From positions 1 through 29,249 of IMG/VR virus record IMGVR_UViG_3300034021_001435: 29,249 nucleotides of DNA; one strand, 5' to 3'. Below the pieces are notes generated by a model. The model was given only the letters and a program-made list of their open reading frames with translations, was not told where the DNA came from and made no database searches. Within the stretch, counting starts at the first letter, position 1. The number at the start of each line of letters is the position of its first letter. The stretch is from a virus. Of the stretch, positions 1,185-26,035 are shown piece after piece. The translations under genes and the position numbers were made by a program.

Positions 1185-1210
1185 TTAATGAACTTTTTTT
1201 TCTATACCAA

Positions 1211-1218: not shown

Positions 1219-1236
1219 AGAAAATAAGAGGTATTT

Positions 1237-1443
1237 ATGAATGATGCTAAAAAAATAAGAGAGATTGAAGGATTGTATTTCTATGAGTGTAAAGAAAATG
1301 AAGAGAATAAAGTAATACTCTTTAAAACACAGGAAAAATACAATGAATTAAGACAATTGTGTGAGAATTTATTAAACTCCAAAACAACTGATGAATTTGA
1401 TATTAATATGAATTTAATTGAATATCATCTAACTCAAAAGTGA
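1237..1443 (+). CDS. Small hypothetical protein on the plus strand
   Basis: This 68-residue highly charged protein is divergent from the flavodoxin-like gene and convergent with the SWIM-finger gene, ending three bases before the latter's stop codon. No minus-strand gene competes for this DNA. The start ATG at 1237 is preceded by AAGAGG at about six bases, one of the few convincing Shine-Dalgarno sequences in the window. The sequence is Glu/Lys/Asn-rich and predicted mostly helical, with no membrane segment or recognisable motif. It interrupts an otherwise one-directional block, like the plus-strand island at 25089-26035, so it may be an early or regulatory gene. That is inference only, and the function is not recognised. 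Confidence 0.65.
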   Translation: MNDAKKIREIEGLYFYECKENEENKVILFKTQEKYNELRQLCENLLNSKTTDEFDINMNLIEYHLTQK

Positions 1444-1446
1444 TTG

Positions 1447-1905
1447 TTACTTATCACCTTTCATTCTTTTGAAGAAATCATTTTTAATTGCACTCAAGTG
1501 TTTACAAAATTTAGGTATTCTCTGAGGATTCATCCTTTTGAGAGGTTGTTTATTTGAAGAAATAAGATTAGATGCATTTTTTTTCCAAAGTAACCACTCG
1601 TTTTCATATCTAAAATCGTTACAATCACAATGGACAATTACATGTTTTCTTAAATTTTCAAGAGTAATGTCATCTTTGTTTTTATTCCATAATTGTATCC
1701 ATTGTCTATGTTTATTCCCATTTGACAATGTTGTAGTCTCATAAAAGTATTTATCTTGTTTAGTTTTTGTTAAGAATTTGACTTTAATACTTTTAGCTCT
1801 ATCCTTATATCGTTTAGGTGTTTTTCTATAAATATAACTAAATCTCAATTCATTGAGATTATTTTGCATACTTTCTAAAAATTCCCCAAATGATTTTTTA
1901 ATCAT
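1447..1905 (-). CDS. SWIM-type zinc-finger protein with capsid-targeting-like N-terminus
   Basis: This 152-residue basic protein ends with a C-X-C...C-X-H arrangement: Cys93 and Cys95 in HCDCNDFRY, then Cys134 and His136 in PKFCKHLSAI. That is the spacing pattern of SWIM zinc fingers, which bind DNA or protein partners. Similar small SWIM-like proteins occur in large phages, but their role is not established. The N-terminus (KSFGEFLES, then NNLNEL at 15-20) has the aromatic plus L-X-E pattern of its neighbours, with possible cleavage after Glu11 or Glu19. The start ATG overlaps the end of the ankyrin-protein gene by eight bases. It is the last gene of the unit starting at 6859. The zinc-ligand assignment is by motif only, and the partner is unknown. 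Confidence 0.75.
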   Translation of the reverse strand: MIKKSFGEFLESMQNNLNELRFSYIYRKTPKRYKDRAKSIKVKFLTKTKQDKYFYETTTLSNGNKHRQWIQLWNKNKDDITLENLRKHVIVHCDCNDFRYENEWLLWKKNASNLISSNKQPLKRMNPQRIPKFCKHLSAIKNDFFKRMKGDK

Positions 1906-3838: not shown

Positions 3839-3869
3839 AGAATATATTTATTATGTTAATAAAGAATTT

Positions 3870-9555: not shown

Positions 9556-10452
9556 TTATAATCCCGAAAATCTTTCACCAACTGCATTACGATCAACATT
9601 TAACCTTTCTCTTTTTGGACTACTTGTAGTAGAAGTTGTTGAACTAGAACTTGATTTGGTTTTAGAACTTGGAGCTGTAGTAGAAGCTGTGGATTGCGGT
9701 TTCCCTGACATTATTAAGTTAGCAAATAACCAAAAATGATAATGACGATAATATTCAAAAAATTCAAATTTTAATTTCGCATCCAAATCTTTCCAAGGAA
9801 ATGTTCCGTCTGAAATTTTTACATCCTTTAATTTTTTTAAAATACTATTATATTCTTGGTCTGAATTTATTCCAGATTCACTAAAAATTGAATCCGTTTT
9901 CGTTTTGTAAAAAGGTGACTTTTGCCAAAGGAGTGTATCTAATACTTTCCTACCTTCTCCCCATGTAGTAGATTCATAAGCACCAATAACTATATCATAA
10001 GAATTTTTGAACCCATCAGAAATCAAATCATTTCTTTTTGAATTTTTAATAGTATCATATCCACTCTGCAAATCAGAAGTGAAATTCAATCTTGATAAAA
10101 TCTTATCATTCCATACTTTTTTGATTTTATCACTTATTTCTTTATATGTAGATTTACCATCGATTTTTTTAGCCATTTCAGAATCATAATAACTACCAAA
10201 TGCTCCTGATTTTGATGAACTGAATAAATCTTCATCTCCAGTCAAAATAATATCTATACGCTGAAAGAACTTATCTTTCAACTTTTGATAAATATTTTCC
10301 TTTGTTATTTCATACATAGATTTAGTTTCTTCAGGAGTCCAACTCGGTTGCATTTCATTCAAAACAAAGTCTCTATTACTCTCATCAAAATGATTTACAT
10401 TTTCATTAGTAGTCTTTTGGATAAAATCTGTGTATGTATAAAGTCTTTTCAT
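9556..10452 (-). CDS. Tagged hypothetical protein with Ser/Thr-rich tail
   Basis: This 298-residue protein has two consecutive leader-like segments. MKRLYTYTDFIQKTTNE (T15-N16-E17) is followed by a second stretch ending in DFVLNEM (L31-N32-E33). Either could be the prohead-protease site, or both may be used in turn. The body is mostly helical and charged, with no membrane segment. Residues about 254-282 form a low-complexity Ser/Thr/Lys linker, followed by a short basic end (SPKRERLNVDRNAVGERFSG). No domain was recognised. It lies between the coiled-coil protein and the 494-residue peptidoglycan-binding protein in the unit starting at 11965, so it is probably part of the same packaged set. 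Confidence 0.8.
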   Translation of the reverse strand: MKRLYTYTDFIQKTTNENVNHFDESNRDFVLNEMQPSWTPEETKSMYEITKENIYQKLKDKFFQRIDIILTGDEDLFSSSKSGAFGSYYDSEMAKKIDGKSTYKEISDKIKKVWNDKILSRLNFTSDLQSGYDTIKNSKRNDLISDGFKNSYDIVIGAYESTTWGEGRKVLDTLLWQKSPFYKTKTDSIFSESGINSDQEYNSILKKLKDVKISDGTFPWKDLDAKLKFEFFEYYRHYHFWLFANLIMSGKPQSTASTTAPSSKTKSSSSSTTSTTSSPKRERLNVDRNAVGERFSGL

Positions 10453-10480: not shown

Positions 10481-11965
10481 TTAAAGTGAACCCATAACAC
10501 TTGAATCAATATTTTGTATATTGTATTTAATCTTTAAATTATTTGCAACTTCTTTAATTTCTGCTTTTGTTTCATTACCTATCATACCATCAACCATTCT
10601 CAAGCCATAATTTTCTTGAAATTTAGTAACAGCACTTGCAGTCGCTGTGTCATAATTACCATCATTTAATTTGGTAGATGGAAGATATTTAAGCAAAACC
10701 AAATAATTATTAATTAATTTAATATTATCTGCTGACATTTTTCTTGAACCAACTTTATAAACTACACCACCTCTTTGAAAGAAATTCATAGATTCAAGTT
10801 CTTCTGTTATCACTAACAATTTCTTAACTCTATCAACCTTCTCTTGATATTCTTTTTCTTTCTCTGATTTCTTAATTTCTTCTTCTTTTTGAACACCTGC
10901 TACTTCTACTTCAATATTCAAATTGATGAGTTTAAGCGCAAGTAATACAATCATACAAACAAACATAACTTGCAAAGCAGGAGTAAAGATATTTTTGAAA
11001 TGTTCTTGAGAATCAACATATACTCTTTTTATGAGAATAGAAGAAACTTCATTTAATAGTTGAGATAAAGGTTCAAATACAGATATATCAGCCGAAGGAT
11101 TAAATTGTCTAAGTGTAAGAATAGCATCTGGGCCAATTGTATAACCACTTAAATTTATCAGATTATAGTTTTGACCAAATTTTTCTTTTAAAGTACCACC
11201 GAATGGGTATTTTGAAATAGCAAATTCTAAAAATGCAGAAAATCTATCATAAACATCAGTAGATTCCAACATCTTATCAAGATCAATATTTGCTCCAATC
11301 AAATTTCCAGGAAAAGTTGAAGCCGAATCAGATTCAATTTTTTGTAAATCCTTAGCATCTATTTTAGTGTATAAATCTTTCAAACCAACAGTTTGAGCAG
11401 ATTGGTATAAACTTTCTAAAGTAGTATCAATAATTTTTATAACATTAACCCCATATAATGACAAGAAACTCTGTTTCAATGATTCTGAATTAAAATCAGC
11501 CATTTTATTAGTTTTTGCCAACTTTACAACTTCATCAATTTTCGGTATAATTGAAGAAATCCCACTTGGGCTTGTAATTTGAGATACCCTTTTGGTTGAA
11601 TTTTTTATACCCTGTGATTTAGTAGCGTTAAGAACTTCTTGAAATCCAGTAGCAAGTTCCCTTTCATAATTAGATATTTGGTTTTTGATATAAGTAAATT
11701 GGGCACGAATCAACTCAAATGAGTTTGTTCCTGTTGATTTACTTTTACCCATAACTTCTGAAAGAGATGGGATATTAGATTTTATAAAATTATGCATAGC
11801 TTCAGATTTTTCTATATCCAAACCTTCAAAAAGTTTGTCAATAGTTAATTGACTTAATCTGAATTCAGCATCGCTATCAATTAAACCAAAAATATCACCA
11901 GAAATGAAATTACCTTCATTGATGCTATAGTCTAAATTTGGGTTGTTAAAGTTCTTGAAAAGCAT
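10481..11965 (-). CDS. Tagged membrane protein with C-terminal peptidoglycan-binding-like domain (paralog 1)
   Basis: This 494-residue protein has a leader ending in Y-S-I-N-E-G (I15-N16-E17). Residues 22-51 (SGDIFG...LSQLTIDKLFEGLDI) align well with residues 33-59 of the 457-residue neighbour at 12339-13712. A transmembrane-like segment lies at about 328-348 (PALQVMFVCMIVLLALKLIN), again aligned with the neighbour, followed by a charged helical linker. Residues about 413-472 match PG_binding_1: a helix, then AVTKFQENYGLRMVDGMIG and N-E-T. The paralogs share the order tag, helical body, membrane segment, linker, peptidoglycan-binding domain. That order would suit a protein anchored in the inner membrane with its C-terminus reaching the cell wall. 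It heads a unit behind the element at 11999-12006. Confidence 0.87.
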   Translation of the reverse strand: MLFKNFNNPNLDYSINEGNFISGDIFGLIDSDAEFRLSQLTIDKLFEGLDIEKSEAMHNFIKSNIPSLSEVMGKSKSTGTNSFELIRAQFTYIKNQISNYERELATGFQEVLNATKSQGIKNSTKRVSQITSPSGISSIIPKIDEVVKLAKTNKMADFNSESLKQSFLSLYGVNVIKIIDTTLESLYQSAQTVGLKDLYTKIDAKDLQKIESDSASTFPGNLIGANIDLDKMLESTDVYDRFSAFLEFAISKYPFGGTLKEKFGQNYNLINLSGYTIGPDAILTLRQFNPSADISVFEPLSQLLNEVSSILIKRVYVDSQEHFKNIFTPALQVMFVCMIVLLALKLINLNIEVEVAGVQKEEEIKKSEKEKEYQEKVDRVKKLLVITEELESMNFFQRGGVVYKVGSRKMSADNIKLINNYLVLLKYLPSTKLNDGNYDTATASAVTKFQENYGLRMVDGMIGNETKAEIKEVANNLKIKYNIQNIDSSVMGSL

Positions 11966-12029: not shown

Positions 12030-12326
12030 TTAAACAAAAATAGTATCGTCTTGTTGTTGACCCTCATCCTTCAATTTACTATATTCTTTTCTATAATCAA
12101 TTTTGGATTCTCTTTCTGTTGATTTATCAGAAGATGATATGACATTAGGATTTACATCTATACCCAAAAGAGCATATAAGTCTGTAAAATCAAACACAAT
12201 ATTATCCATTTGATAGGTATAGACTTTAGAATCTTCTTCGTTTATTGTTTTACCTAATAAATGTTTAGTGTGCAATAATTCACTTTCATTCATTTGTATA
12301 AATTTTTGGAAATTTAGTATTCTCAT
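12030..12326 (-). CDS. Small tagged hypothetical protein
   Basis: This 98-residue protein is dominated by leader-like sequence. MRILNFQKFIQMNE (M12-N13-E14, then Ser) is followed by a second site, GKTINE (I28-N29-E30). The remaining 68 residues are acidic and polar, with a short hydrophobic patch (NIVFDFTDLYALLGID) and a Gln/Asp-rich end (GQQQDDTIFV). Its size and design resemble T4 internal head proteins, which are small, tagged and injected to counter host defences. There is no sequence match that I recognise, so this is analogy only. It is the last gene of the unit starting at 16992 and has no clear Shine-Dalgarno. Confidence 0.75.
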   Translation of the reverse strand: MRILNFQKFIQMNESELLHTKHLLGKTINEEDSKVYTYQMDNIVFDFTDLYALLGIDVNPNVISSSDKSTERESKIDYRKEYSKLKDEGQQQDDTIFV

Positions 12327-12338
12327 AGTTTTGTATAT

Positions 12339-13712
12339 TTATTTTTTTCCTAATCTTTGTTCAAAATCTTCCATAAAAGCTGTAAGAGCAAGACGAGTAT
12401 TTTTACCTATTCTACCATCTACTTGAATTCCACTCCCACCAATCTTGACAGCACCTTGGAATTTTTTTACAGCATTCCCTAAAATATTTTTATCAAATAC
12501 TTTACTTTCCAAATATGAAGTTGAACGATTTTTTAATAATCCAATAGCACTAAAGAATTTTTTAAGTTGAACTATCATTTCTTGTTCTGCTGATGTGTAT
12601 TTTTTATTCTCATAAAAAACTTTATCACTATCCAAAAATCCAGATGCGACTAAAGAATTATATGTTGTTAAACTTTCATTATATTTTTTCTGAACCTTTT
12701 CAGAAATTTCTGTTCTTTGTCTTGCTTCTGAACTAAGTTTTTCAACTCTTTCAACTAAACTTACAATCATCTTAAATGTTAAGAAAGCATTACATGATAC
12801 AAAAAGAGTTTGTAATGTTGGGATAGTAACATTATCCCATTTTTGAGATGTTGATTCAAGAGTTTCTTGAAAAAGTAAAGGGAATGTTTCATTTATCAAA
12901 ACTTTAAGTTCATTTAATAAACTCAATGGAATTTCTTCAGAACCTGAAGCATCTGTAAGTGGGGTTAGTATCAAATTTAAAAATTCTGATGCATTATCCT
13001 TGTAAACTAAATTAGATAGTCCAGATATTTTCAATGAATTCAAAGACATTTCCAACATCATAGAAATTCTTTGTACAGGAGATTCACTAACAATTAGTTT
13101 AGAAGCATCTACATCTTCTTTAATCCAAAATCTTTTTTCAGCCGTAGCAAATGAACTTGGTTCTAAATCTTCTAAATCCATATCATCAATTTTTGAATAT
13201 ACAGATGATTTAAGTCCCGTAACATTAGAATCAATTTTCTCAATTATACCATCAAGAAACTTTTGAGCCATACCTGTTGTATTTTTAAGAGTCTCACTAT
13301 TACTAATTAATTCCTTTACTTTTGTAAAATCAATTCCTGATTCTTTTATAAGTTTAATAATCTGCTCATTAGATTTAAGTTTAGTTTCTTTATCAGTTAT
13401 AGATTTTTTGATATATTCAATTTGCTTAATAACAATTTTATCAGCAGTATTTTTTTCTTTTTCGCTTTCTGTAAATACTTCTTTACAACTTGGAAACATC
13501 GTTCCTATACTTGTAAATGATTTTGAATCATCATCTATTTCAAGACCTCTAAAAAGATTTGAAATAGTTAGAGCACTTAAATTATCTTCTGCACTCTTTT
13601 GAAAAATATTACCTGAAAAACTTTCATTTAGAAAGGAAGTAGTTGAAAAACTCTTGTTTAGTGAAGTTTTTACATCTTTTACTTTTTTGTAGTACGAATT
13701 ATCAAATTCCAT
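12339..13712 (-). CDS. Tagged membrane protein with C-terminal peptidoglycan-binding-like domain (paralog 2)
   Basis: This 457-residue protein is a paralog of the 494-residue product at 10481-11965. The leader is longer here and ends in S-F-L-N-E-S (L28-N29-E30). Residues 33-59 (SGNIFQ...LSALTISNLFRGLEI) align with the paralog. A hydrophobic segment at about 298-318 (PTLQTLFVSCNAFLTFKMIV) is followed by a charged helix (LVERVEKLSSEARQ). The C-terminal PG_binding_1-like domain (about 376-446) contains KKFFSAIGLL, GNAVKKFQG and the signature VDGRIGKNTRLAL. Its closest internal motif match to the 427-residue protein is the VDGRIGK(Q/N)TR segment. A tandem duplication followed by divergence would explain the family. 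Placement in the envelope is inferred. Confidence 0.87.
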   Translation of the reverse strand: MEFDNSYYKKVKDVKTSLNKSFSTTSFLNESFSGNIFQKSAEDNLSALTISNLFRGLEIDDDSKSFTSIGTMFPSCKEVFTESEKEKNTADKIVIKQIEYIKKSITDKETKLKSNEQIIKLIKESGIDFTKVKELISNSETLKNTTGMAQKFLDGIIEKIDSNVTGLKSSVYSKIDDMDLEDLEPSSFATAEKRFWIKEDVDASKLIVSESPVQRISMMLEMSLNSLKISGLSNLVYKDNASEFLNLILTPLTDASGSEEIPLSLLNELKVLINETFPLLFQETLESTSQKWDNVTIPTLQTLFVSCNAFLTFKMIVSLVERVEKLSSEARQRTEISEKVQKKYNESLTTYNSLVASGFLDSDKVFYENKKYTSAEQEMIVQLKKFFSAIGLLKNRSTSYLESKVFDKNILGNAVKKFQGAVKIGGSGIQVDGRIGKNTRLALTAFMEDFEQRLGKK

Positions 13713-13728: not shown

Positions 13729-15759
13729 TTATCTATTTGCTAATGCTGCTTGCATTTGTTGTATATATCCTTGTACTTCCCCTCTTGAATTAATTTCTTG
13801 TGGACTTATAGTTCCAGCTAAATTTGTTGGAGAAGTCATATTTAAGAATTCAATTTGTTTTGCTAAATAAGCTAATGTTAAAACATCCGCTTTACCATCA
13901 ACTTTAATTTCAGCATTTGTTGGTTGAGCATTTGTTTGAATACCTGCTATAATTTTTGCTAATTCTTCGTCATATTCACCATTAATCTCACCATCGTATA
14001 AGTTGAGTTTTTGTAAACTCTGTTGAAGCAATTTAACATCGCCACCACTATCTCCTAATTGCATGTAATTTCTTTCTTGACCATTTGAATCAAACCTTTT
14101 AATAAGACCTACAGGTTTATCTAAATTCTTTTCGTCTGCTGTTATAGGAATTTTTCCGCCATATAAGTCATTCTCAAAGCGATAAAATACACTTGCATAT
14201 GCAGATAAGAGACCAATCGTTTCAAGCCCTGGTGTCGGTAATTCAAATGAATTAGCCCATTTGTTCTGCATCGCTTCAACCATAGGTTGAGATACTTTAG
14301 ATTGTGCATCTAAATACAAATCAAATGTAGGACTTTTAATTTGATCATAGCATTTTTGAGCATCACTACTTGACATTATTCCATTAGATTCTAATCCCTG
14401 AACCCAACTATTGAAAACATCTTTAGGATTACCACTTGTTGCTTTTTCTTGCATTATTTTACTTGCATTATGAAATGTCAAAAATGGTTGAAGATTATCT
14501 TCAGCCATATCTAATTCTAAAATAGAAAGTAATTCTTTAGAAGGAGTTTTTCCACTCTTTTCGTCATTTTCATTAAACCAAGAAGCTAACCAATAAATTA
14601 TACCACCATAAATTGAAAATTTTATCAGACTTGGAGCAACTGCCACAAAAATAGATCTATAAAATTTTCTTCTATCTTCCACTCTTCTTTGTCTTTCAGC
14701 TCTTTTATTTTCTTTTTCAATTTCTCTTTGCCTACGCTTTTCATCTTTAATTCTACTTATTTCATCCTTCTTGGCTTGTTTTTCTCTTTTGAGTTTCTCA
14801 AGTAAGTCATCTACATTTTTTTCTTTAGGAGCATCTGCATTATTTAATGCCTTTGTTTGTTTGTCTTTAGGGATATTAATGTCAAGTTCAGGAACTCCTC
14901 TACCCTGAACAGAACTTGTTGTCGGTTGTTGTATTTTTCCTGATATCCACGCTTCTTCACCTGCGTTTTTAATACCACTCTTTACTTGATTAAATTCTGG
15001 TGTATTCCTAACTACATCTGATATTCCAGAAGTGTTAAATGTATTTGCATTTACATTTATTTTATCCACACCCTTTGCTATTGAAGTTACTTCATTGTCT
15101 AAAGCAGAAAATGAACTCTTTACCCCTTCTCCTGATTTCTTAAACAAACCTTTAAATAAACCCCTTACAGTTTCAAATCTTTCATTTATTTCTTTATATT
15201 CTGATGATTCATTTGTACTTTTATTATCAGGTTCTAATACCTTTTTATTCAGAGATTCAACCATAGAATTAATTGGAACTTCAGAATCATACCAATTTTT
15301 GATTGAATTTAGAATTATAGTACCAAGTGTAATTGGATTTCCTTTAAGTTCATCAATGGTTTCTTTTGTTAAAGTATCTACTCCAAATCCAGCATTTGAA
15401 CTTGCAATCTCATTAATGATTTCTATTATATTTTTAATATAATAATTATTACTTACTTCAAGCATTGTGCTATCTATCGTCAAAGGTTCTTCTAACTTTA
15501 AATTAGAAAGTTCTTCTTCTTTCAATAATCCTATAAGCTGTGCATATGCACCAACTTTCATATCTTTAATTGGAGAATTGTATAATGCTGTTATAGTTGC
15601 ATCAATATCATCTTCTCCTCTTATTGCCTTTAATGCACCAGAAGGATCTTTTTCTGAAAATAATTTTTCAGAGGATTTGGCTAATTTTTGATCTACCCAA
15701 TCTGGAAAAGCCGAATCTTCATTCAATTTTCTCTCATACGCATTAAATCTTGTAATCAT
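13729..15759 (-). CDS. Large tagged protein: basic coiled coil, membrane segment and peptidoglycan-binding-like domain
   Basis: This 676-residue protein begins MITRFNAYERKLNE (L12-N13-E14, then Asp). Residues about 1-200 are helical. About 310-365 form a very charged, strongly basic helix (for example KKDEISRIKDEKRRQREIEK). It runs directly into a transmembrane-like segment at about 369-394 (IFVAVAPSLIKFSIYGGIIY, then WLASWF). Under the positive-inside rule, the basic helix would stay cytoplasmic or virion-interior and the C-terminus would be outside. A PG_binding_1-like domain at about 567-636 (LGDSGGDVKLLQQSLQKLNL, G-E-I-N-G-E-Y-D, KVDGKADVLT) would then face the cell wall. A possible extra cleavage site, I-N-E, lies at 191-193. 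It is the largest product of the block and a strong candidate for a component spanning the inner membrane. Confidence 0.88.
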   Translation of the reverse strand: MITRFNAYERKLNEDSAFPDWVDQKLAKSSEKLFSEKDPSGALKAIRGEDDIDATITALYNSPIKDMKVGAYAQLIGLLKEEELSNLKLEEPLTIDSTMLEVSNNYYIKNIIEIINEIASSNAGFGVDTLTKETIDELKGNPITLGTIILNSIKNWYDSEVPINSMVESLNKKVLEPDNKSTNESSEYKEINERFETVRGLFKGLFKKSGEGVKSSFSALDNEVTSIAKGVDKINVNANTFNTSGISDVVRNTPEFNQVKSGIKNAGEEAWISGKIQQPTTSSVQGRGVPELDINIPKDKQTKALNNADAPKEKNVDDLLEKLKREKQAKKDEISRIKDEKRRQREIEKENKRAERQRRVEDRRKFYRSIFVAVAPSLIKFSIYGGIIYWLASWFNENDEKSGKTPSKELLSILELDMAEDNLQPFLTFHNASKIMQEKATSGNPKDVFNSWVQGLESNGIMSSSDAQKCYDQIKSPTFDLYLDAQSKVSQPMVEAMQNKWANSFELPTPGLETIGLLSAYASVFYRFENDLYGGKIPITADEKNLDKPVGLIKRFDSNGQERNYMQLGDSGGDVKLLQQSLQKLNLYDGEINGEYDEELAKIIAGIQTNAQPTNAEIKVDGKADVLTLAYLAKQIEFLNMTSPTNLAGTISPQEINSRGEVQGYIQQMQAALANR

Positions 15760-15771: not shown

Positions 15772-16992
15772 TTAAGTTGTTGCAGTTGTGGTTTCTGAAT
15801 TGCCATCTGAAAAATCAGAAATCAATTCGTAAATAGCTTCTCCCAAAACCCAGAAAGCATAAATTGTCAATAAAAACATAACAAGTTGGCTTATACCTGG
15901 TATAGGAATAAGAATCCCAGCCATACCCGCAATAATTTTATCTATAAGCATAAACTTACCAAAATCAGATATAGCTGATATTAAAATAGCAAAAGTAGGT
16001 CCCATAACCTTAAATTCATAAGGACCTGCAATTCCAAAGTTATCATGTAAAAACTTTGAAGCGTATTCCAACGATTCATTCGTATTTGTTTTTATACTTT
16101 CAGAGAATTCCTTTATCCAACTAAATGGTGGAAGCATATCAAGTTTAGAACACGCCCATTCATAAAATTTTTCAAGTATTTCAATAGACTCATTAATTTT
16201 TTTCATTTCATTAAATGAACCTATTTTTAATCTGCTCGTATTTAACATTTTATGATTATCAATATCTATAAGACCTTCTTTTATAGCACTTGGGAGTAAT
16301 TCCGCTATTGAATTTTTAATAGAATCTTGAATATGATAAGAATCTTTGGATTCATTGATAGCCTTATTTAATGACATTGTAACTTTTGAAGCAAAAACCT
16401 CACCATTAATAATTTTACCAACACTATCAACAAACATAGAACTTAATTGTCCTGTTTCTCTTGATAACATATTCCAAAGTTCTTTATATTCATCATAGTC
16501 TTTTTCATTCAAAGATTCTTTTACACCATTTATCTGCTGATTCAAAGAAATAGTAATTTGTCTTTTCAAAGATTTGTTACCAGAAAACCACTTGTTAGTT
16601 TCTATTTTTACTGATTCCCAAGTTCCCTTTACTCCGTCCATTATCTTGCTTACAACAGAACTAACAGCACTTGCTAAATTTGAACCTAGTTCTACTACCC
16701 AATTAATAGCACCTTTTAGGGCAGTAGCAGTTTTATCAACAGTATCTCCCAACCAAGTATTTAATTTTGAAAACCAAGAATCTTCTTCTAGTAAATGCCA
16801 ATCATAAAAAGATAAATTCTGTTCACTTACAAATAAAAGGATATATCTTTGATCTTCAGTAATATAAATATTCTCTGATTCTAATATAGATTCAGCAACT
16901 GGAATATAAGATGATGTGATATATCTGGAATTAGATATTGTTTTCTTTTGAAAATAATCATCAAATGATAATATGGGTTGTCTATTTTTCAA
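15772..16992 (-). CDS. Tagged multi-pass-like membrane protein, TTG start
   Basis: This 406-residue protein is read from TTG at 16992. An AAGAGA Shine-Dalgarno-like stretch lies about nine bases upstream, and there is no in-frame ATG in the short leader. The N-terminus has aromatic leader features (LSFDDYF at 9-14), and the best hydrophobic-X-Glu site is I36-L37-E38 followed by Ser. Residues 75-125 are amphipathic and Trp/Val/Ala-rich. The C-terminal 330-390 is strongly hydrophobic, with two or three likely membrane segments (FAILISAISDFGKFMLIDKI; GMAGILIPIPGISQLVMFLL; TIYAFWVLGEAIYELI). It is the first gene behind the element at 17021-17028. No family was recognised. A pore- or channel-forming role in ejection is a guess from hydrophobicity. 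Confidence 0.8.
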   Translation of the reverse strand: MKNRQPILSFDDYFQKKTISNSRYITSSYIPVAESILESENIYITEDQRYILLFVSEQNLSFYDWHLLEEDSWFSKLNTWLGDTVDKTATALKGAINWVVELGSNLASAVSSVVSKIMDGVKGTWESVKIETNKWFSGNKSLKRQITISLNQQINGVKESLNEKDYDEYKELWNMLSRETGQLSSMFVDSVGKIINGEVFASKVTMSLNKAINESKDSYHIQDSIKNSIAELLPSAIKEGLIDIDNHKMLNTSRLKIGSFNEMKKINESIEILEKFYEWACSKLDMLPPFSWIKEFSESIKTNTNESLEYASKFLHDNFGIAGPYEFKVMGPTFAILISAISDFGKFMLIDKIIAGMAGILIPIPGISQLVMFLLTIYAFWVLGEAIYELISDFSDGNSETTTATT

Positions 16993-17048: not shown

Positions 17049-18020
17049 TTACCAAGTACTTTTTTCCATACCAATAGTATTCCTAACATCTACATGAGTA
17101 AAATTATTTTTCATATAAAGTCCTATACCACCTTGATGAAAACTATTTACAAAATCAAAAACTTCTTTTGGAGAAACTCCCGATATTGTAATATCGGCTG
17201 CATTTCCATACATGTGTTGTGAATTTTGTGCAACGCCTTTACGCCCTTTTTTACGAAGTCCCGCATTATAAGCTGGTGTTCTATAACCTGAATTGATTTT
17301 TACAGGTTTTCCAAAATGTGTTCTAATTTTTTCAAGTAATTCTACTAAAAAAGGATTAATGAGTACTGGTTCAGAATTATCTCTACAAGCAAAATCAGAA
17401 ACTTTAAAATTTGGTGATACATTCTTATCACCATCTTTTGTTCTGCTGAAATGAACTGATACCGCAGCATATTTCTCAGTTTCTTGTGATGGAAAATCCA
17501 CTCCTCTTTTTACACCCTCTCCTCGCTTTACAGATGGAGTTGGGAATGTTATAGAACTTGGCATTGTGGTTGGAACAATATTTTTCTGTTCCTTATCTTT
17601 TGGTTTCTCTTTTGATTGAGGTTCTTCTTTTTCTTCAAATTCTAAAAGAAATCGGATAAAACTATTGGGTACAGAACTTGTAACTTCTATTGTTAAATTA
17701 AAATCTTTAATCATTAATTTAACAGCATCTAAAGTTTGAGAATCAAGTACACCATCAGGTAAATGATTTTTTAAGTAATCATAAGAAATAAGTATAGCTT
17801 GTAAAACAGATACATCTTGATTTTTATCAGAAAGATTCAGAGTCTTATTACCATTTATTACATCATCGGAAAAATAAGTACTGACTATATCTTTAACTAA
17901 TTCTTCTTTTTTATTCTTGTCTGTTTCAGATTGAATTAATCGTATAGCTTCTTCTGCATTTTGAATTTTAACTTCATTCAAAACGAAATCTGAAAATTTT
18001 AATATAAATTTGTTACTCAT
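17049..18020 (-). CDS. Tagged M15A-like D,D-/D-Ala peptidase with peptidoglycan-binding-like domain
   Basis: This 323-residue cell-wall peptidase has an N-terminal tag MSNKFILKFSDFVLNE (L14-N15-E16, then Val). Residues 21-127 hold a domain shared with the next gene (YFSDDVINGNKTLNLSDKNQ, D-V-S-V-L-Q-A-I-L) that resembles PG_binding_1. A Lys/Glu/Pro linker (129-150) follows. The C-terminal zinc-peptidase domain resembles Peptidase_M15_3: NFKVSDFACRD (204-214), KINSGYRTPAYNAGL (241-255), SQHMYGNAADI (267-277) and THVDVR (308-313). Likely zinc ligands are His269, Asp276 and His309. Such enzymes cut peptide cross-links of peptidoglycan. The tag suggests packaging inside the head, unlike an ordinary endolysin, so I favour a role in entry. 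A lysis role remains possible. Confidence 0.9.
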   Translation of the reverse strand: MSNKFILKFSDFVLNEVKIQNAEEAIRLIQSETDKNKKEELVKDIVSTYFSDDVINGNKTLNLSDKNQDVSVLQAILISYDYLKNHLPDGVLDSQTLDAVKLMIKDFNLTIEVTSSVPNSFIRFLLEFEEKEEPQSKEKPKDKEQKNIVPTTMPSSITFPTPSVKRGEGVKRGVDFPSQETEKYAAVSVHFSRTKDGDKNVSPNFKVSDFACRDNSEPVLINPFLVELLEKIRTHFGKPVKINSGYRTPAYNAGLRKKGRKGVAQNSQHMYGNAADITISGVSPKEVFDFVNSFHQGGIGLYMKNNFTHVDVRNTIGMEKSTW

Positions 18021-18055
18021 ACAATTTCATATAATTATTTTAGCATAACAATTTA

Positions 18056-19018
18056 TCAGACAATATATTGTGCAGCTTGAGGATTTTTAAGTTCAAAATG
18101 CATACCATCTTTACGATTCTTATAATGACCTCCCCAAAAGAATCCCCATTTAAGTGCAGATGGAACAAGTTCTCTCAATGATCCCTTTTCTCCAATAGCA
18201 GGTGGCGTTTGATACAGACCATTGTATTTTGTATTAATGTCAAATGCAACACCAAAAGCATGATTACTTAAAGTTGTTTTACTACCTCTTATAAATCTTG
18301 GGTTATACAAACCATTGAATGTTATAATTCTTGATAATAGTCCTAAATTTTCCCATTCTTGCCACAATCCAATAATTTGACGAGCAGCAAGTTTATGACA
18401 TCTTTGTTGAGTTGAACGAGGATGTTGTATTTTAGCAAGTTGAGGTATAGTAATAGTGATTATATTATCTCTTTCAAAATTATTTGTGATAATTATACCA
18501 TCACCTGAACCTTTGGGCTTATACTCAATCGGTCCGTATATTTTTTGAGCTTCTGATTGTGATAAGTAAGTTAATTGATCAGGTTTAGGTGGCCAATTAT
18601 ATTTATCTTCATATGCTTCTTTAGGTAAATTTGAAGGATTATATTTTATCGTTTTTGCAACATCTGTTTGAACTTTATATGTAGTAAATAAGTCAATGAT
18701 ACTTTTACCAACTGGTTGATTTACATCTACACTAACACCAAAAGTTTGAGCAAATGATTTCAGACCATTCATTGTTACCTGATCTAATTTCCCTGTCATA
18801 TCATTGTTTTTAAGGAAACTTAATCCAACAAGAATAGTTTGTAGAGTTTTTACATCTTGACTTTCTTCGTTTAAATTCATTGACAAAGAGCCAGATAACA
18901 ATTCATCAGAAAAATATTCTTTACTTACATATTGAACAATAGATTTAGTATCCTCGCTTTTTTTTGAATTGCGAAGTGCTTCAATAATCTGTTTTGGAGT
19001 TTCTAATTGAATTTGCAT
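18056..19018 (-). CDS. M15C-like peptidoglycan endopeptidase, paralogous N-domain, lacking the tag
   Basis: This 320-residue protein has an N-terminal part (residues 3-110) paralogous to residues 19-127 of the downstream peptidase: YFSDELL...LNEESQDVKTLQTILV aligns with YFSDDVI...LSDKNQDVSVLQAILI. The catalytic half differs. It has the M15C / L-Ala-D-Glu endopeptidase pattern: FNGLYNPRFIRG (234-245), LSNHAFGVAFDI (250-261) and DGMHFEL (304-310), with probable zinc ligands His253, Asp260 and His307. Alignment shows that Met1 falls at the residue just after the paralog's L-N-E cleavage site, so this copy has a body but no leader. The upstream stop lies two bases before its ATG, which excludes a longer form from this frame. 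It may be a soluble lysin or a partner of the tagged paralog. Confidence 0.9.
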   Translation of the reverse strand: MQIQLETPKQIIEALRNSKKSEDTKSIVQYVSKEYFSDELLSGSLSMNLNEESQDVKTLQTILVGLSFLKNNDMTGKLDQVTMNGLKSFAQTFGVSVDVNQPVGKSIIDLFTTYKVQTDVAKTIKYNPSNLPKEAYEDKYNWPPKPDQLTYLSQSEAQKIYGPIEYKPKGSGDGIIITNNFERDNIITITIPQLAKIQHPRSTQQRCHKLAARQIIGLWQEWENLGLLSRIITFNGLYNPRFIRGSKTTLSNHAFGVAFDINTKYNGLYQTPPAIGEKGSLRELVPSALKWGFFWGGHYKNRKDGMHFELKNPQAAQYIV

Positions 19019-19020: not shown

Positions 19021-20922
19021 TTACCTATTTTCTTTTAAAATATCTAATAACATTTTTGCGTAATTATCAAAAATAACTTTAAGATAAAAAGTAACTGCTT
19101 CTGATGTTTTACTCATAAAGAAATATTCGTTGGGTTTATCTTTATATGGTATAAATACTTTATTTAATAATTGATTTTTGAAAACATCATCAGGGCTTTC
19201 AATTAAATCCATAATGAGCAATGAGTTTCCTTCAATTATTTGTTTTTTATTTGAAGTTTTTAATACCTCCATCAATTCTTTTTGAATCTCATTAGGATTT
19301 GTAATAATTTGTTCAATTATTGTGGATTGTTCAAATAATTCTTTAAGGAAATTACTGCTATTATATTGACGACCTGCATCTCCCTTTGGTCCTCTTTTTT
19401 GTTCATCTTCTACATTAACAATTAAATCAGATTTAGGTTGAACAGATTTTTGTTCAGGTTCTGTTATTTCTTTAGGTGGTATCGCTTCTTTGGATGATGC
19501 TATTCCTTTGGAAGCATCTTCAACTTCAGATTTATTGCGATTCTCCATATAAAAATTAAAGAATGAATCTAATATTTTATTGCTATTGTTTATTATAGTA
19601 CTCAATTCAAGACCAAGTGAGTATCCATCCTCACTTTCCATAAAGTAATAAAAATCATCTCTCTTTTCAGATTTCTTAATGAGTTTGTTAACTAATTCAT
19701 TTCTTTCAATAACATCTGAACCATCAATAATTGCTTCATCAAGAAGTTTAATAATAAAATTAGAAATAATCCTTCTTGATTCATCATACGAGGATCTTGA
19801 TAAAGGCCCATACACTCTTGTCAATTCAGGTTTTACTGATTGAGCATTTTTGGGCTTGTCTTTCATAAGTCTTATAATTGCTTCTGTTGTTTCTTTGACT
19901 ATTTCTTCCTTTCTCTTTTGATTTTCTTCATCTGTAATCTCGTAAGGAATATCCACATTGATTATTATCTCATCAGATTTAGAAGTCTTTGTTGTTGGGG
20001 TTTCAGTCGTTGGAGTTTCTACAACATCGGTTGAAACATCTGAATCAACAGGCATTTCTTCTTTCGGTAGTTCAGTAGATAGTTCTTTCTCAATCTCTTT
20101 TGATGAATCAATCGCTTGATTTATTTCTTCGGGAGACATACTTTTTATTTCAGTTTCCCATGAATTCAATAATTGAATACGATTAAATGGTGGATTACCA
20201 AATACTACAACTGGACCCTCAATTCCAGAAACAGATATTTCAACAACATCCGCATTTTCAAATTTTTTACTTTTGAAAAGTTTTGAAAGTGTTTTTACAG
20301 GTATTTGTATATTTCTTGAAAGACTTGATAAAAATATTAAACCAGGTGTATCTGATGTTTTATCAAAATCAAAATAAGGGTATTTAACCAAAAATCGTGT
20401 CACTTGTACATAGGCATTATCCATATTAGATTCTACCGAATCTGCATCTGAATCACCGCTCAAATAATCAATGAAATCTGAAAATATAGATTCATTAAAT
20501 AATCCTCCAGTTTTTCTCTTTCTTTTTGTTCTATAAGAACCATAACCATAATCTTGAAGATGACTTGAGAAAGCATTCAAATTGTAGTTTTGAGTGTACT
20601 TACCATATTCTTTACCAATTTTTTCAGATGGCAGAACAACTAAAACATCTCCACTCCAAACTTTTGAAGATATTCTTGTAATTTTAAGATTTTCAATGTT
20701 CATCTCTCTAATTACTTTCTTCAATTGCTTTTCACTCGCAACAATAGTTTGTGAAAGTTTTTCTAATGGACATAAACCAGGAAGACCTGTGCTTATTTCA
20801 TATCCATATTGCTGATTATTTTTTAAGAATATTTGAATTCTCTCAAGAGTTTTCTTGTATTCCTTATTCTTTCTATCTTTCAAAAAGTCTAAAAAGGATT
20901 CATGTACATTAGAATATTTCAT
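19021..20922 (-). CDS. Large hypothetical protein with two internal duplications
   Basis: This 633-residue protein contains two pairs of internal repeats. Repeat A is at about 27-98 (YEISTGLPGLCPLEKLSQTI, with LKITRIS and GDVLVVLPS) and about 172-243 (FDKTSDTPGLIFLSSLSRNI, with VVEISVS and GPVVVFGNP). Repeat B is at about 314-462 (KSDEIIINV, then NELVNKLIKK, DDFYYFMES, FFNFYMENRN) and about 496-632 (KSDLIVNV, then NQLLNKVF, NEYFFMSK, MLLDILKENR). Acidic Thr/Pro/Glu-rich linkers separate them. Repeat A has a helix pattern that could be winged-helix-like, a weak impression. The N-terminus lacks a clean early hydrophobic-X-Glu site, but LFNES at 141-145 follows a Lys/Arg cluster and resembles one. 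It is the second gene of the unit beginning at 21396. Function not recognised. Confidence 0.83.
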   Translation of the reverse strand: MKYSNVHESFLDFLKDRKNKEYKKTLERIQIFLKNNQQYGYEISTGLPGLCPLEKLSQTIVASEKQLKKVIREMNIENLKITRISSKVWSGDVLVVLPSEKIGKEYGKYTQNYNLNAFSSHLQDYGYGSYRTKRKRKTGGLFNESIFSDFIDYLSGDSDADSVESNMDNAYVQVTRFLVKYPYFDFDKTSDTPGLIFLSSLSRNIQIPVKTLSKLFKSKKFENADVVEISVSGIEGPVVVFGNPPFNRIQLLNSWETEIKSMSPEEINQAIDSSKEIEKELSTELPKEEMPVDSDVSTDVVETPTTETPTTKTSKSDEIIINVDIPYEITDEENQKRKEEIVKETTEAIIRLMKDKPKNAQSVKPELTRVYGPLSRSSYDESRRIISNFIIKLLDEAIIDGSDVIERNELVNKLIKKSEKRDDFYYFMESEDGYSLGLELSTIINNSNKILDSFFNFYMENRNKSEVEDASKGIASSKEAIPPKEITEPEQKSVQPKSDLIVNVEDEQKRGPKGDAGRQYNSSNFLKELFEQSTIIEQIITNPNEIQKELMEVLKTSNKKQIIEGNSLLIMDLIESPDDVFKNQLLNKVFIPYKDKPNEYFFMSKTSEAVTFYLKVIFDNYAKMLLDILKENR

Positions 20923-20931: not shown

Positions 20932-21396
20932 TTATATTTCTTCGTGGCTAACAATAGCGAATTTAGATTCTCCAACTTCTTCAATAGGCATATTCTCTTC
21001 ATTACTGATGAATCGAATTGAACTATCTTGCAATGTATATTTTCCAGCAGGGAATGAATTGTTCAAGTTGTTTTTGGTTGTATAACGAATAAGAACTTCA
21101 ATTTCTTTAGCATTTTGTTTTCCTACAAGATTAGAAACAACTAAATTTATTTGTGCATATTCAATAGCAGGTCCAAAAATACCTAATGAAGCACCTGATA
21201 AAGGATTTGATGTGAATGTTTGACTATCTCCATAATCTCTATGTAGAGAAAGAATTTCCAACTTTACTTTATAGGGTTTCAAAACAACACTATTAAGATG
21301 TTTTTTGATTGTTTCTAAATCATCTTTCAATGGTTCGCCAGAAATCATCTTTGCTTCATTGACTTTCGTTTTTTTGTATTCTTCAAAAATTTTCAT
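20932..21396 (-). CDS. Tagged hypothetical protein just downstream of the portal gene
   Basis: This 154-residue protein begins MKIFEEYKKTKVNEAKM, with V12-N13-E14 followed by Ala as candidate prohead-protease site. This is very close in design to the T4 internal protein leader. The body is beta-rich and polar (YKVKLEILSLHRD, IEYAQINLVVSNLVG, EIEVLIRYTT, GKYTLQDSSIRFIS), without membrane segments or known motifs. It is the first tagged gene after the portal, and heads a unit behind the element at 21424-21431. In T4 the position after gene 20 holds prohead core genes 67 and 68, so a core or internal-protein role fits by synteny, but I see no sequence match to them. Confidence 0.8.
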   Translation of the reverse strand: MKIFEEYKKTKVNEAKMISGEPLKDDLETIKKHLNSVVLKPYKVKLEILSLHRDYGDSQTFTSNPLSGASLGIFGPAIEYAQINLVVSNLVGKQNAKEIEVLIRYTTKNNLNNSFPAGKYTLQDSSIRFISNEENMPIEEVGESKFAIVSHEEI

Positions 21397-21472: not shown

Positions 21473-23113
21473 TTATACTTGTGGTTGTCCACTATCTTCA
21501 CCGCCACCTTCTTCACTTGAAACTTCTTCATCACCAGGCTTATCCCCTGCTTTCTTTTCCTTTTCTTTAATCATAGACCTATTTTCTTGTAATTCTTCTC
21601 TTGTCAAATTCAAGAAGTTTTCCATAGCATAATCCAAGTCAAAATAAGAATCTTCCTTTGTTTTAGGAATATTAAGAAGTTCATTAATCGCAGCAATTCG
21701 TTTTTGCATAATTTCAACTTTTCTTTGAGTTTCAAAGCTATTATCACGATTAAATTTGATACCAATACTAGATTTAAAAAGGTGATCTCCGTGAAATTCT
21801 GGGAATTTCATCAAAATTTGCAAAAGAAGAGGCTTTAACATAATTTCTTGAAAACCAGAACGCAATCTATTTACGAAATTATGAAAACGAATTTCATCTC
21901 TTTGAATACCTTCTGCTGATAAAGATAGAGCAGAACCACCTTCAGCAAAACGACTCATAGGAATTTTAGATGCTCTTCTTAATTTAGATTCAAAGTATTT
22001 CAAGAAATCTGTACTTGATAAATCAAGAGTTTGACCTGCAATAACCTCAACATTCGGAGAATTTCCATCTTTTGACGGAAACATAAAATGTTTAAAGAAT
22101 GGTATAGATGGTCTGCCGTTTACACTTAAAGTTCCATCTGCATCATTAAAGAATATTTCTTCTTTATAGTTATTCAAAATTTCAGAAAGTTCTTGTTTTG
22201 CTTTTTGAGGAGAATTACTACCGATTGGAATAGTCATTTTCAATCGCATCTGAGCATACATAATATGCCACATAACTTTTGAGTTCTCAATCAAACGGAG
22301 CAAATTCAAAGGTCTAACCAAACGCTCTACATAACTTACACGATCCATTTGCATATTTTGAGCATATGCAATATAAATAACAGTAGAATCATAGATTATC
22401 CTTTCCATATCATTACCTATCTTTTGAATCCATACTATGTATTCTTCACCATCATCACCTACCATTGTTGATAATTGCAATGTAGCTGGATCAAGTTTAT
22501 TAAGAGCTATTACTTCTTTTCCATCTTCATCAGTAACAATTTCAAATGCCAAAAATCCATCTACAAGATATTGTCTAAAAAGATTCCACGCTTTTGTGTT
22601 ATTATTGAATTCAAATTTTACATAAAGTTTTTTGAACTCTTCATGAATAGTGTCAACTATTTCTTCTTTCTTTTCTTCATTTAAGAATGATTCCAGTCCT
22701 TTTGTATCTGGATAACAAAACCAATTTTTTTCATCATAAACAATAGCTTCATCTGAAATTGTATCTAAAATTTCTACGATTTCATCATTAAGCGAAAATG
22801 AACGAAGAAAATCTCTCTTGGTAATATAATTTGAATCATAAACAGCTAACGCTTTTAATCCACCAATATCTTGAATAGCCATAGCAGAAAGCAATCGCTG
22901 ATCCCATTGAGCCGATGTATAACCACCATACACAGAATGTCCAAGTGGTCCAGCACTACCTTGTGAAGTTTCTGTTTCACCAGCACCCTGCCTTCTTTGT
23001 ATAATTAAATCATCATAATACATTCCAAATGATGACAATTTTCTTACATTGTCTGCTGGTCCTGATGTGAAACCATAAGTTTTGGCTCCGTCTTTTGATA
23101 CAAATCCTGCCAT
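21473..23113 (-). CDS. Portal vertex protein, T4 gp20 family
   Basis: This 546-residue protein fits T4 gp20 (524 residues), the dodecameric portal through which DNA enters and leaves the head. Family-like segments in order include the RLVRPLNLLRLIENSKVMWH helix (about 265-284), the following KMTIPIGSNSPQKAKQELSE region, and GQTLDLSSTDFLKYFESKLR with RASKIPMSRF, equivalent to the T4 stretch ending in an N-V-P-x-S-R-type motif. The RDEIRFHNFVNRLRSGFQEI segment matches the R-D-E-I-K-F helix of gp20, followed by LKPLLLQILMKFPE. The C-terminus is a Lys/Glu/Gly-rich tail. It starts MAGFVSKDG, without a packaging leader, as expected for a structural vertex protein. It is the last gene before the terminator at 21432-21458. 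Confidence 0.93.
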   Translation of the reverse strand: MAGFVSKDGAKTYGFTSGPADNVRKLSSFGMYYDDLIIQRRQGAGETETSQGSAGPLGHSVYGGYTSAQWDQRLLSAMAIQDIGGLKALAVYDSNYITKRDFLRSFSLNDEIVEILDTISDEAIVYDEKNWFCYPDTKGLESFLNEEKKEEIVDTIHEEFKKLYVKFEFNNNTKAWNLFRQYLVDGFLAFEIVTDEDGKEVIALNKLDPATLQLSTMVGDDGEEYIVWIQKIGNDMERIIYDSTVIYIAYAQNMQMDRVSYVERLVRPLNLLRLIENSKVMWHIMYAQMRLKMTIPIGSNSPQKAKQELSEILNNYKEEIFFNDADGTLSVNGRPSIPFFKHFMFPSKDGNSPNVEVIAGQTLDLSSTDFLKYFESKLRRASKIPMSRFAEGGSALSLSAEGIQRDEIRFHNFVNRLRSGFQEIMLKPLLLQILMKFPEFHGDHLFKSSIGIKFNRDNSFETQRKVEIMQKRIAAINELLNIPKTKEDSYFDLDYAMENFLNLTREELQENRSMIKEKEKKAGDKPGDEEVSSEEGGGEDSGQPQV

Positions 23114-23756: not shown

Positions 23757-24527
23757 TTATTGTTTTAAGGGAGAAAAATTAAATGGAGTATCCACTAATT
23801 CAAACTCATATCCATGAACACAATCTTTTCCTAAAAATGGTCTTGAAAATGAATCCTCAATCAATTCTTCCCATCTTCTTTCATTCTTATGTCCCCACCC
23901 TGAAACCTTTTTAAGAAGTTGTGCTTTTGTTCTTACCCATGAAAAATGATGAATATAGACATTATCCTGATATTTCACATTGAATAAACTTGTTACATTA
24001 TCAATAACAGCGTGACCACCTCTATCATATTTTGTAAAGACATTTCTTTTATTTAGAACATTCCTTGCAACAATCATATGTGCTTGTTCTAAAGTTTTAC
24101 TTCTATATTTGAAATCTCTGAAATACCAGTACATACTCAAAGAATAACTTTTATAGGAAGTCCAAAACTCATTGAAATTCTTTCTATATGAATTTAAAAA
24201 CAAATCACCATCTATAATTTCATCAGAATCTATTTGCATAATGTAATCTGTTTTACATTTCTCAATCCCTATCCATCTTGAATAGCAATTCCAATAAAAA
24301 TCAAATGGTATATTATCATGCCATTGGTATTCAAGAATATCAATGTTTTTATACTGAGAGCAAAATGATTTTAAGTTATCTATACTTTCCTTATTTTCAG
24401 GTTCCCCATTGTACAAATGGCTTGAAACTGATATGAAAATATTATTTGCAAATTTTTGACACTGGCGTATATTTTCTTCAATGAAAATTTCATCAAGAGT
24501 GCAATAAGGTATAACAACATCTATCAT
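23757..24527 (-). CDS. Glycosyltransferase, family-2-like (GT-A fold)
   Basis: This 256-residue protein begins with a GT-A type strand and loop (MIDVVIPYCTLDEIFIEENI). It carries a D-S-D motif at Asp100-Ser-Asp102 within YIMQIDSDEIIDGDLF. That is the DXD-type site that binds the nucleotide-sugar and metal in family-2 enzymes. The preceding helix, FYWNCYSRWIGIEKCKTDY, corresponds to the conserved segment before the DXD. A downstream YIHHFSWVRTKAQLLKKVSG stretch resembles the H-x-x-W/R region found in related glycosyltransferases. It may modify virion proteins, modified DNA bases or host surface sugars. Its place between gp4-like and portal genes favours a virion target, but that is inference. 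It ends 13 bases before the next gene and starts three bases after the nuclease stop. Confidence 0.85.
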   Translation of the reverse strand: MIDVVIPYCTLDEIFIEENIRQCQKFANNIFISVSSHLYNGEPENKESIDNLKSFCSQYKNIDILEYQWHDNIPFDFYWNCYSRWIGIEKCKTDYIMQIDSDEIIDGDLFLNSYRKNFNEFWTSYKSYSLSMYWYFRDFKYRSKTLEQAHMIVARNVLNKRNVFTKYDRGGHAVIDNVTSLFNVKYQDNVYIHHFSWVRTKAQLLKKVSGWGHKNERRWEELIEDSFSRPFLGKDCVHGYEFELVDTPFNFSPLKQ

Positions 24528-25088: not shown

Positions 25089-25451
25089 ATGTCACAAAAA
25101 AGATTTCTTAGAGATGCCAAAAGTGTTTTTAAGGAAATACAAAAAGAATTAATAAGTCCAGAAGAAGAAGAGGTTTTCCAAAAGGTTGCCGAAAGGTTAA
25201 ATGTTTCCTATGAATCTGATAAAATCAAAGAAGAGGAAGCAAATAAAAGAAAACCAAAGAAAAAAGCAGTTACATTAGATGAAGAAACTCTTACATTTGC
25301 AAATCAAACCCAATTGTTAAGAGCAATACTTTCAAATGATATGGCTAGAAGGGAGAGTTTGGGCGAATTCGTAAAAAACCTTATTAAAGAAGAATGGAAA
25401 AGGTTATTCTCAACATACGAAAACTTGAGAAAAGATATTGATAATGAATAA
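25089..25451 (+). CDS. Small charged hypothetical protein
   Basis: This 120-residue, mainly helical protein is rich in Lys and Glu. An N-terminal helix (KRFLRDAKSVFKEIQKELIS) leads into a very charged middle (KIKEEEANKRKPKKKAV) and a C-terminal helix (GEFVKNLIKEEWKRLF). There is no membrane segment or recognised motif. It is the first gene of a three-gene plus-strand island, divergent from the gp4-like nuclease. The leader before ATG 25089 is A/T-only with no Shine-Dalgarno. T4-type small terminase subunits are also small and helical, but nothing specific supports that assignment. Function not recognised. Confidence 0.75.
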   Translation: MSQKRFLRDAKSVFKEIQKELISPEEEEVFQKVAERLNVSYESDKIKEEEANKRKPKKKAVTLDEETLTFANQTQLLRAILSNDMARRESLGEFVKNLIKEEWKRLFSTYENLRKDIDNE

Positions 25452-25476
25452 CAAAGTAAATTCTGACTAATAATTT

Positions 25477-25485
25477 GATATATAG
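25477..25485 (+). promoter_or_regulatory. Putative promoter element GATATATAG (plus strand)
   Basis: TTTGATATATAGATAA is centred in the 61-base gap before the ATG at 25513, 28 bases from the core to the start codon. Its flanks match the minus-strand copy before 21396. Confidence 0.6.
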
Positions 25486-25512
25486 ATAATATCAATTAAA
25501 ATATATTTCACT

Positions 25513-25704
25513 ATGAAAACATTTACACAAACAACTGAACAATTTCGTAAGCGAATCTATGAACAAGATGCCGATGCTGCGAAAGAACAAGCTGCAAAAA
25601 ACTATTTAACTAAATTATATGAGTTCAACATTAATTCAATTACCGAACTCAATGAAGAAGAAATAGTTGAATTTATTCATGGACTCAAATCTTTAGAGAG
25701 ATAA
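25513..25704 (+). CDS. Small hypothetical protein with tag-like start
   Basis: This 63-residue helical protein begins MKTFTQTTEQFRKRIYEQDA. That is reminiscent of the tagged leaders elsewhere (aromatic residues, then I-Y-E at 15-17), though the polar character and absent N-E make it a weak case. The rest is acidic and helical (ELNEEEIVEFIHGLKSLE). It could be a prohead core peptide comparable in size to T4 gp67 (80 residues), which is only a size analogy. It has its own upstream GATATATAG element, no Shine-Dalgarno, and ends one base before the next start codon. Confidence 0.7.
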   Translation: MKTFTQTTEQFRKRIYEQDADAAKEQAAKNYLTKLYEFNINSITELNEEEIVEFIHGLKSLER

Positions 25705-25705
25705 T

Positions 25706-26035
25706 ATGTTACAATTCATTCGACAAATTTTTAAGAAAAAGTCGAAACCACTAAAAACTATTGAAATAATTGATGATTTGGAAGATAATAGTCCAAAGAT
25801 GCACAATTTTCAAGAATTTACAGATAAAAAGTATTGTACAATTTTAGAGAGAGTAAATTCAAAAAGCGATTGCAGTTATGATACCTTAAAAATTGCTTGG
25901 AGATGTCAAAATCGTATAAAACCTGGTGATTTAATCATATTGAATAGAAATGGAAATTTCAAAACTTTAAGACTTCTAAAAATCCTAAAAGAAGACCCTG
26001 ACGAAAAAATAGGAATAGTTTCGACACTTAAATAA
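25706..26035 (+). CDS. Small hypothetical protein, last of the plus-strand island
   Basis: This 109-residue protein has a hydrophobic and basic start (MLQFIRQIFKKKSKP) that might touch membrane. An acidic linker (IIDDLEDN) follows, then a C-terminal beta-rich part (IKPGDLIILNRNGNFKTLRL). The G-D-h-h-h-L-N segment looks like a small barrel, but no family is assigned. The ATG follows the preceding stop by one base, with AGAGAGA nearby as a possible ribosome-binding site, so translation is probably coupled. It ends at a strong hairpin that terminates the island. Confidence 0.72.
   Translation: MLQFIRQIFKKKSKPLKTIEIIDDLEDNSPKMHNFQEFTDKKYCTILERVNSKSDCSYDTLKIAWRCQNRIKPGDLIILNRNGNFKTLRLLKILKEDPDEKIGIVSTLK

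Follow-up and report, generated by a model that had tools for sequence, protein, structure and literature searches.

A leader-bearing and a leaderless M15 peptidase with paralogous N-terminal domains, encoded side by side in the head-gene block of a large T4-like virus

Most of what is known about capsid-targeting leaders comes from a handful of T4 proteins and from engineered fusions. The T4 internal proteins IPI, IPII and IPIII are otherwise unrelated, but have a short N-terminal propeptide in common, which is cleaved by gp21. IPII and IPIII start with MKTYQEFIAE, i.e. an aromatic-xx-Phe pair followed by I/L-x-E, and in IPIII, targeting depends mainly on residues 4 and 7, and processing on residues 8 and 10 (PMC9026906). 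The T4 endolysin gene e, which encodes a leaderless wall hydrolase, is located directly beside ipIII and ipII, and thus provides a precedent for a leaderless wall enzyme next to leader-bearing genes. Wall-cutting enzymes that reside inside the head and are released at infection are described in podoviruses, namely T7 gp16 and phi29 gp3; the part of the source that we draw on describes no cleaved targeting leader for either (PMC5380687). In phiKZ and SPN3US, a prohead protease related to that of T4 acts on many head proteins, paralogous ones among them; the propeptides are for the most part far longer than those reported here, with S/A-x-E sites, and the sections of that source that we draw on describe no leaderless peptidase twin (PMC5694885). 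In DarB of phage P1, an N-terminal signal of less than 30 residues suffices for the packaging of a foreign protein, and no common consensus was found among the Dar proteins (PMC9024508), unlike the motif reported here, which is plain across many genes. The M15 endolysins Ply500 and LysB4 resemble the two proteins that we describe in the family of their catalytic domain. A peptidoglycan-binding domain followed by an M15_4 domain, without a leader, is a common endolysin layout. Our search of the literature for capsid targeting sequences in connection with a peptidase and peptidoglycan returned no example, which does not in itself prove that none exists.

The window, i.e. the whole stretch of DNA that we have analysed, is a virus record of 29,249 bases, a fragment from a large bacterial virus that is T4-like and uncultured. 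Its head genes are anchored by the portal gene:

21473 to 23113, minus strand: T4-type portal protein (gp20), the anchor that marks the block as head genes

The portal protein matches PF07230 with E 4e-66, and its nearest named or deposited phages, at 33-39% identity, are uncultured huge phages of 460-735 kb and the Lak Prevotella phages. The window also encodes a gp4-like head-closure protein (phrog_218) and, by a weaker match, a gp2-like DNA end protector (phrog_429). A glycosyltransferase-like gene (23757-24527) is located between these two; the related contigs L106 and L109 have it as well, whereas L107, L110 and L111 lack it in this position. Three short opposite-strand genes (25089-26035) lie inside the head gene cluster and are kept in most of the relatives seen. 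The portal gene is followed by a block of 17 consecutive minus-strand genes, extending from the gene of a 154-residue protein down to position 444:

20932 to 21396, minus strand: 154-residue protein with the leader MKIFEEYKKTKVNE; next gene after that of the portal
19021 to 20922, minus strand: 633-residue protein with a conserved aromatic-xx-aromatic N-terminus (SFLDF), in which an early L-x-E is not clear
18056 to 19018, minus strand: untagged peptidase, 320 residues; PG_binding_1-like domain, linker and Peptidase_M15_4, no leader
17049 to 18020, minus strand: tagged peptidase, 323 residues; leader, PG_binding_1-like domain, linker and Peptidase_M15_3
17973 to 18020, minus strand: leader of the tagged peptidase, MSNKFILKFSDFVLNE, with the putative cut after Glu16
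15772 to 16992, minus strand: 406-residue protein with the aromatic motif SFDDY
13729 to 15759, minus strand: 676-residue protein with the leader MITRFNAYERKLNE and a C-terminal PG_binding_1 domain
12339 to 13712, minus strand: 457-residue protein, leader ending in SFLNE; paralogue of the 494-residue protein
12030 to 12326, minus strand: 98-residue protein with the leader MRILNFQKFIQMNE
10481 to 11965, minus strand: 494-residue protein with the leader MLFKNFNNPNLDYSINE and a C-terminal PG_binding_1 domain
9556 to 10452, minus strand: 298-residue protein, leader ending in FVLNE at residue 33
8203 to 9540, minus strand: 445-residue protein with the leader MNKFILKFSDFILNE, unrelated to the tagged peptidase, although their leaders are near-copies
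6947 to 8200, minus strand: 417-residue protein, leader ending in HILNE
5576 to 6859, minus strand: 427-residue protein with the leader MITRFDIFREQRINE and a C-terminal PG_binding_1 domain
444 to 5573, minus strand: the other four block genes, with leaders or leader-like N-termini, encoding proteins of 567, 646, 152 and 246 residues

Most of these 17 genes have in common an N-terminal leader of 14 to about 34 residues, composed of [FY]xx[FY] and [LIVM]NE. Within the first 25 residues, the aromatic pair occurs in 15 of the 17 genes of the block, but the 11 other window genes that were scored all lack it there; across the window, it is found in 10 of the 11 genes with [LIVMF]NE leaders versus five of the 17 others (Fisher P 0.002), and two related contigs show the same tendency (P 0.0003 in one, P 0.0002 in the other). 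Leaders with [LIVMF]NE are present in 20 of the 105 proteins encoded by the window and a related contig, whereas random internal windows give 4.8 ± 1.9. The 11 scored leaders of the window all contain N-E, by construction of the scan, and L, I, M or V precedes it. In the family of the 494-residue protein, the leaders differ in body and length, but the hydrophobic-x-E is kept: SINE/GNFIS, RLNE/SNFIS, NISE/GNFIS and RVDE/SNFIS, the slash marking the putative cut. The 406-residue protein contains a conserved YIP[VI]AE/[SA] at about residue 34, a likely later cleavage site. Near the C-termini of the three leader-bearing proteins at 5576-6859, 10481-11965 and 13729-15759, the Pfam cut-off of PG_binding_1 is passed, so that the putative head cargo would be rich in wall-binding domains. 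Two more proteins with leader-like N-termini, one with ankyrin repeats (1898-3838) and one with a weak FMN-reductase match (444-1184), are candidates for injection into the bacterial host.

In the tagged peptidase, the aromatic pair is FSDF at residues 9-12 and the L-N-E is located at residues 14-16; I6, F12, L14, N15 and E16 are invariant across the six lineages introduced below, and in relatives, the aromatic pair reads YEEF, FGEF or YDKF. In T4 IPIII, the corresponding Y4-xx-F7 is closer to the cut by one residue. In the predicted structure, residues 1-19 have a pLDDT of about 30 and the fold starts at residue 22, compared with residue 8 in the untagged protein, and the leader is thus an appendage outside the folded domain. 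The leaders of the tagged peptidase and of the 445-residue protein are identical at 39 of 45 nucleotides, where 34.1 ± 2.3 are expected by chance when the peptides are held fixed (P 0.02); this suggests leader exchange within the genome, but the excess is modest and no more than suggestive of a very recent copying event between the two genes.

The untagged peptidase is the sole member of the block with neither the aromatic motif nor a conserved L-x-E. A candidate cleavage site in it, IIE at residues 11-13, has been rejected, as it is located inside the first predicted helix (residues 8-16) and is not conserved, being IID in two orthologues and consisting of different residues in two others.

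The first-pass annotation had described the N-terminal domains of the two peptidases as paralogous, and the comparison bears this out: BLASTP finds one N-terminal, gap-free match between residues 16-129 of the tagged and 2-115 of the untagged protein (25% identical, E 9e-16), the identity being 25-26% over 107-114 residues without gaps, and the BLOSUM62 score of this register is 166, against 34 ± 6 in 1000 shuffles (maximum 62). The best diagonal sets Met1 of the untagged protein on Asn15 of the tagged one, two residues before the putative P1' residue, Val17; the shift of just two residues that had been expected from a gap-free alignment is thereby confirmed, while the register that had been favoured, VKIQ on MQIQ, is not tenable, its diagonal scoring 11 (next-best 25) versus 166.

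The N-terminal domains, about residues 20-129 of the tagged and 5-115 of the untagged protein, fall below the PG_binding_1 cut-off of 23 bits (22.6 and 17.9 bits), with the tagged orthologue of L110 just above it (23.6 bits); their predicted folds match peptidoglycan-binding domains with Z of about 7-8.5. In the tagged protein, a low-confidence linker leads to Peptidase_M15_3 at residues 205-311 (74.5 bits, cut-off 23.2), with the zinc-peptidase motif SQHMYGNAADI...HVDVR; in the untagged protein, Peptidase_M15_4 occupies residues 245-310 (60.7 bits, cut-off 25). The predicted folds of both enzymes match M15 peptidases with middling Z, and the residues of the M15 zinc site are kept in both: SxHMxGxAxD and HVDVR are present in all five full-length tagged orthologues, and His253, Asp260 and His307 are invariant among the untagged ones. 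BLASTP gives no credible alignment between the two catalytic domains. No named phage was found to carry close relatives, the matches in the 'phages' database spanning the catalytic domains only, and a sequence search of the PDB with the tagged protein returned nothing at E 0.01.

We have followed the pair across six lineages: the window together with the near-identical 3300034019_001418; L106; L109/L113; L111/L112; L004/L005/L006/L108; and L110, several of these contigs being truncated in one of the two genes. In all six, the two peptidase genes are located side by side, the untagged proteins being 49-70% and the tagged ones 52-72% identical to those of the window; the leader is present in six of six tagged and missing from six of six untagged orthologues. 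Relative to the P1' residue of the tagged protein of the same lineage, Met1 of the untagged protein is located at -2, -2, -2, 0, 0 and -3, so that the claim of a split exactly at the cleavage point holds to within three residues, being exact in two of the six lineages and two residues off in the window. A tree of the 12 N-terminal domains separates the tagged from the untagged set with support of 100/99, without gain or loss of the leader within either; the duplication therefore predates the divergence of the six lineages, and the leader status has not switched since.

As for the rest of the assembly machinery, the window, being a fragment, contains neither a gp21-type protease nor a gp23-type capsid gene, whereas a relative of 199.9 kb (G005) has matches to both Peptidase_S77 (gp21) and Gp23; a gp21-type protease was also detected in seven contigs from more distant relatives. 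Taken as a group, these viruses encode a portal, a protease and a capsid protein of the T4 type. The capsid protein of G005 contains LNE/S, with LNE at residues 41-43, within the N-terminal part that is removed from gp23 in T4, although not exactly at the T4 cut in a MAFFT alignment with gp23. The open frames that hold the gp21-type protease domain (G005:C1 166459-168477 and those of the other contigs) span about 600-720 codons; this is three times as long as T4 gp21 and perhaps points to a scaffold fusion. The product of the adjoining gene in G005 (C1 168648-169532) has a lysozyme domain of the T4 type, preceded by a long extension at the N-terminus; this relative also encodes an Amidase_2 protein and a 261-residue PG_binding_1 protein.

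On the strength of these comparisons, the identification of the leader as a T4-type capsid-targeting propeptide appears well supported. It is improbable that the leader is some other N-terminal signal, e.g. for membrane or compartment targeting, with the L-N-E conserved for another cause: the varying leader lengths and the indirect case for cleavage would allow it, but the genes adjoin the portal gene, the leader bodies diverge between orthologues where the hydrophobic-x-E stays, and the pattern fits T4 IPII and IPIII. That the untagged protein has lost its leader through an artefact, i.e. a wrong start codon, a frameshift or an assembly error, has a negligible chance of being true. An in-frame stop is located two codons before the ATG in both the window and 3300034019_001418, which has the same start; the gene upstream, that of the 633-residue protein, ends at 19021, 2 nt ahead of this start; an upstream in-frame leader, which would have pointed to such an error, was sought in the six lineages and none was found, five diverged ones included; and the separation of the two sets on the tree argues in itself against a start or sequencing error.

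From the paralogy, the leader boundary, the distribution of the leader over six lineages, the two catalytic motifs and the gp21- and gp23-type genes of the relatives, all of which are read from the sequences, we infer the packaging, cutting and ejection of the tagged enzyme and where either enzyme acts. A protein with a peptidoglycan-binding domain would have been duplicated long ago to give the pair, one copy having the T4-type capsid targeting sequence and an M15_3 peptidase, the other an M15_4 peptidase and no such sequence. During head assembly, the aromatic-xx-aromatic N-terminus of the tagged enzyme would bring it into the prohead core, and a gp21-type phage protease would cut after Leu-Asn-Glu16, leaving the mature enzyme, Val17 to residue 323, inside the head; this would exit with the DNA at infection and act on the wall, or on wall precursors, of the new host. 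The untagged enzyme, with the same kind of binding domain, would be kept out of the head and stay in the producing cell, most likely for lysis. We consider this scheme as a whole to be probable.

Against it, the untagged gene is located inside a block of head-protein genes, as expected of a virion protein, and in every lineage seen, it has its fixed place between the genes of the 633-residue and the tagged protein, in the portal-proximal block. Both enzymes might accordingly be virion proteins, the untagged one entering through binding to its tagged paralogue or to the 633-residue protein, or being part of the baseplate or tail. The binding domain that the two have in common and the separate lysis candidates of G005, lysozyme and amidase, would agree with this, but the missing aromatic motif and L-x-E of the untagged protein do not, and neither do its closest relatives outside the clade, which are mostly leaderless proteins of 260-275 residues with the peptidoglycan-binding plus M15_4 layout usual for endolysins ([LIVMF]NE leaders were found in none of 24 further, distant M15_4 relatives inspected); overall, we regard a virion location of both enzymes as unlikely, if worth keeping in view. 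Rather doubtful as well is a variant of our scheme in which the packaged enzyme acts in the cytoplasm of the new host, on wall precursors or recycling peptides: the T4 internal proteins IPI and Alt act in the cytoplasm (PMC9958956), and VanXY-type dipeptidases, whose substrates are small precursors, have the M15 fold, but the peptidoglycan-binding-like domain suggests the polymeric wall as the target, and the family matches point to wall peptidases. Returning to the scheme of a packaged tagged and a cell-bound untagged enzyme, the earlier proposal of one internal and one lysis enzyme is well supported, by inference, in its internal half; lysis is only one option for the other half, since with the lysozyme, the Amidase_2 protein and the further PG_binding_1 protein of G005, a lytic role of the untagged M15_4 enzyme is not required. 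Its layout is that of the peptidoglycan-binding plus M15_4 endolysins of other phages, from which it differs in the location of its gene in the head block, and its lytic role is putative.

In comparison with T4, an M15 wall peptidase and several peptidoglycan-binding proteins would be among the cargo, [LIVM]-N-E is the usual form of the motif and a single block holds a larger tagged set; in comparison with T7 gp16 and phi29 gp3, the enzyme belongs to a T4-like virus and is a separate peptidase of 323 residues with a propeptide that would be cleaved. The locus offers a testable case of a wall enzyme carried in the head of a T4-like phage, and the leader pattern gives a sequence rule for predicting the head-travelling proteins of uncultured huge T4-like phages. 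More tentatively, and with the balance of our judgement leaning against it, a huge T4-like phage may package a matured wall peptidase and several peptidoglycan-binding proteins as a wall-processing set that is ejected, while the untagged twin works in the producing cell, the gain or loss of the tag assigning an enzyme family to entry or to exit.

The pair had also been put forward as a natural tag-plus/tag-minus comparison. As an experiment of nature on wall peptidases, its outcome has been kept across six phage lineages; the leader is indeed present in one protein and absent from the other, but the two catalytic domains come from separate M15 families, which rules out one enzyme with and without a tag and confounds the leader with the type of enzyme. 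A cleaner comparison is offered by the contig 3300017788_004205, where the catalytic family is the same. This contig holds an untagged protein of 317 residues, a tagged protein and a third gene:

L202 5601 to 6221, corresponding to about 83600 to 84220 of 3300017788_004205: 206-residue protein, leader and stand-alone M15_4 domain

The 206-residue protein consists of MKYIKRLELFNNHSCVNE and, no more than about five residues on, an M15_4 domain that has 49% identity with its counterpart in the untagged protein of the same contig; it has no binding domain, in which the two M15_4 proteins still differ. The description of the leader as a detachable module is upheld by this fusion, together with its distribution over the six lineages and its location outside the fold.
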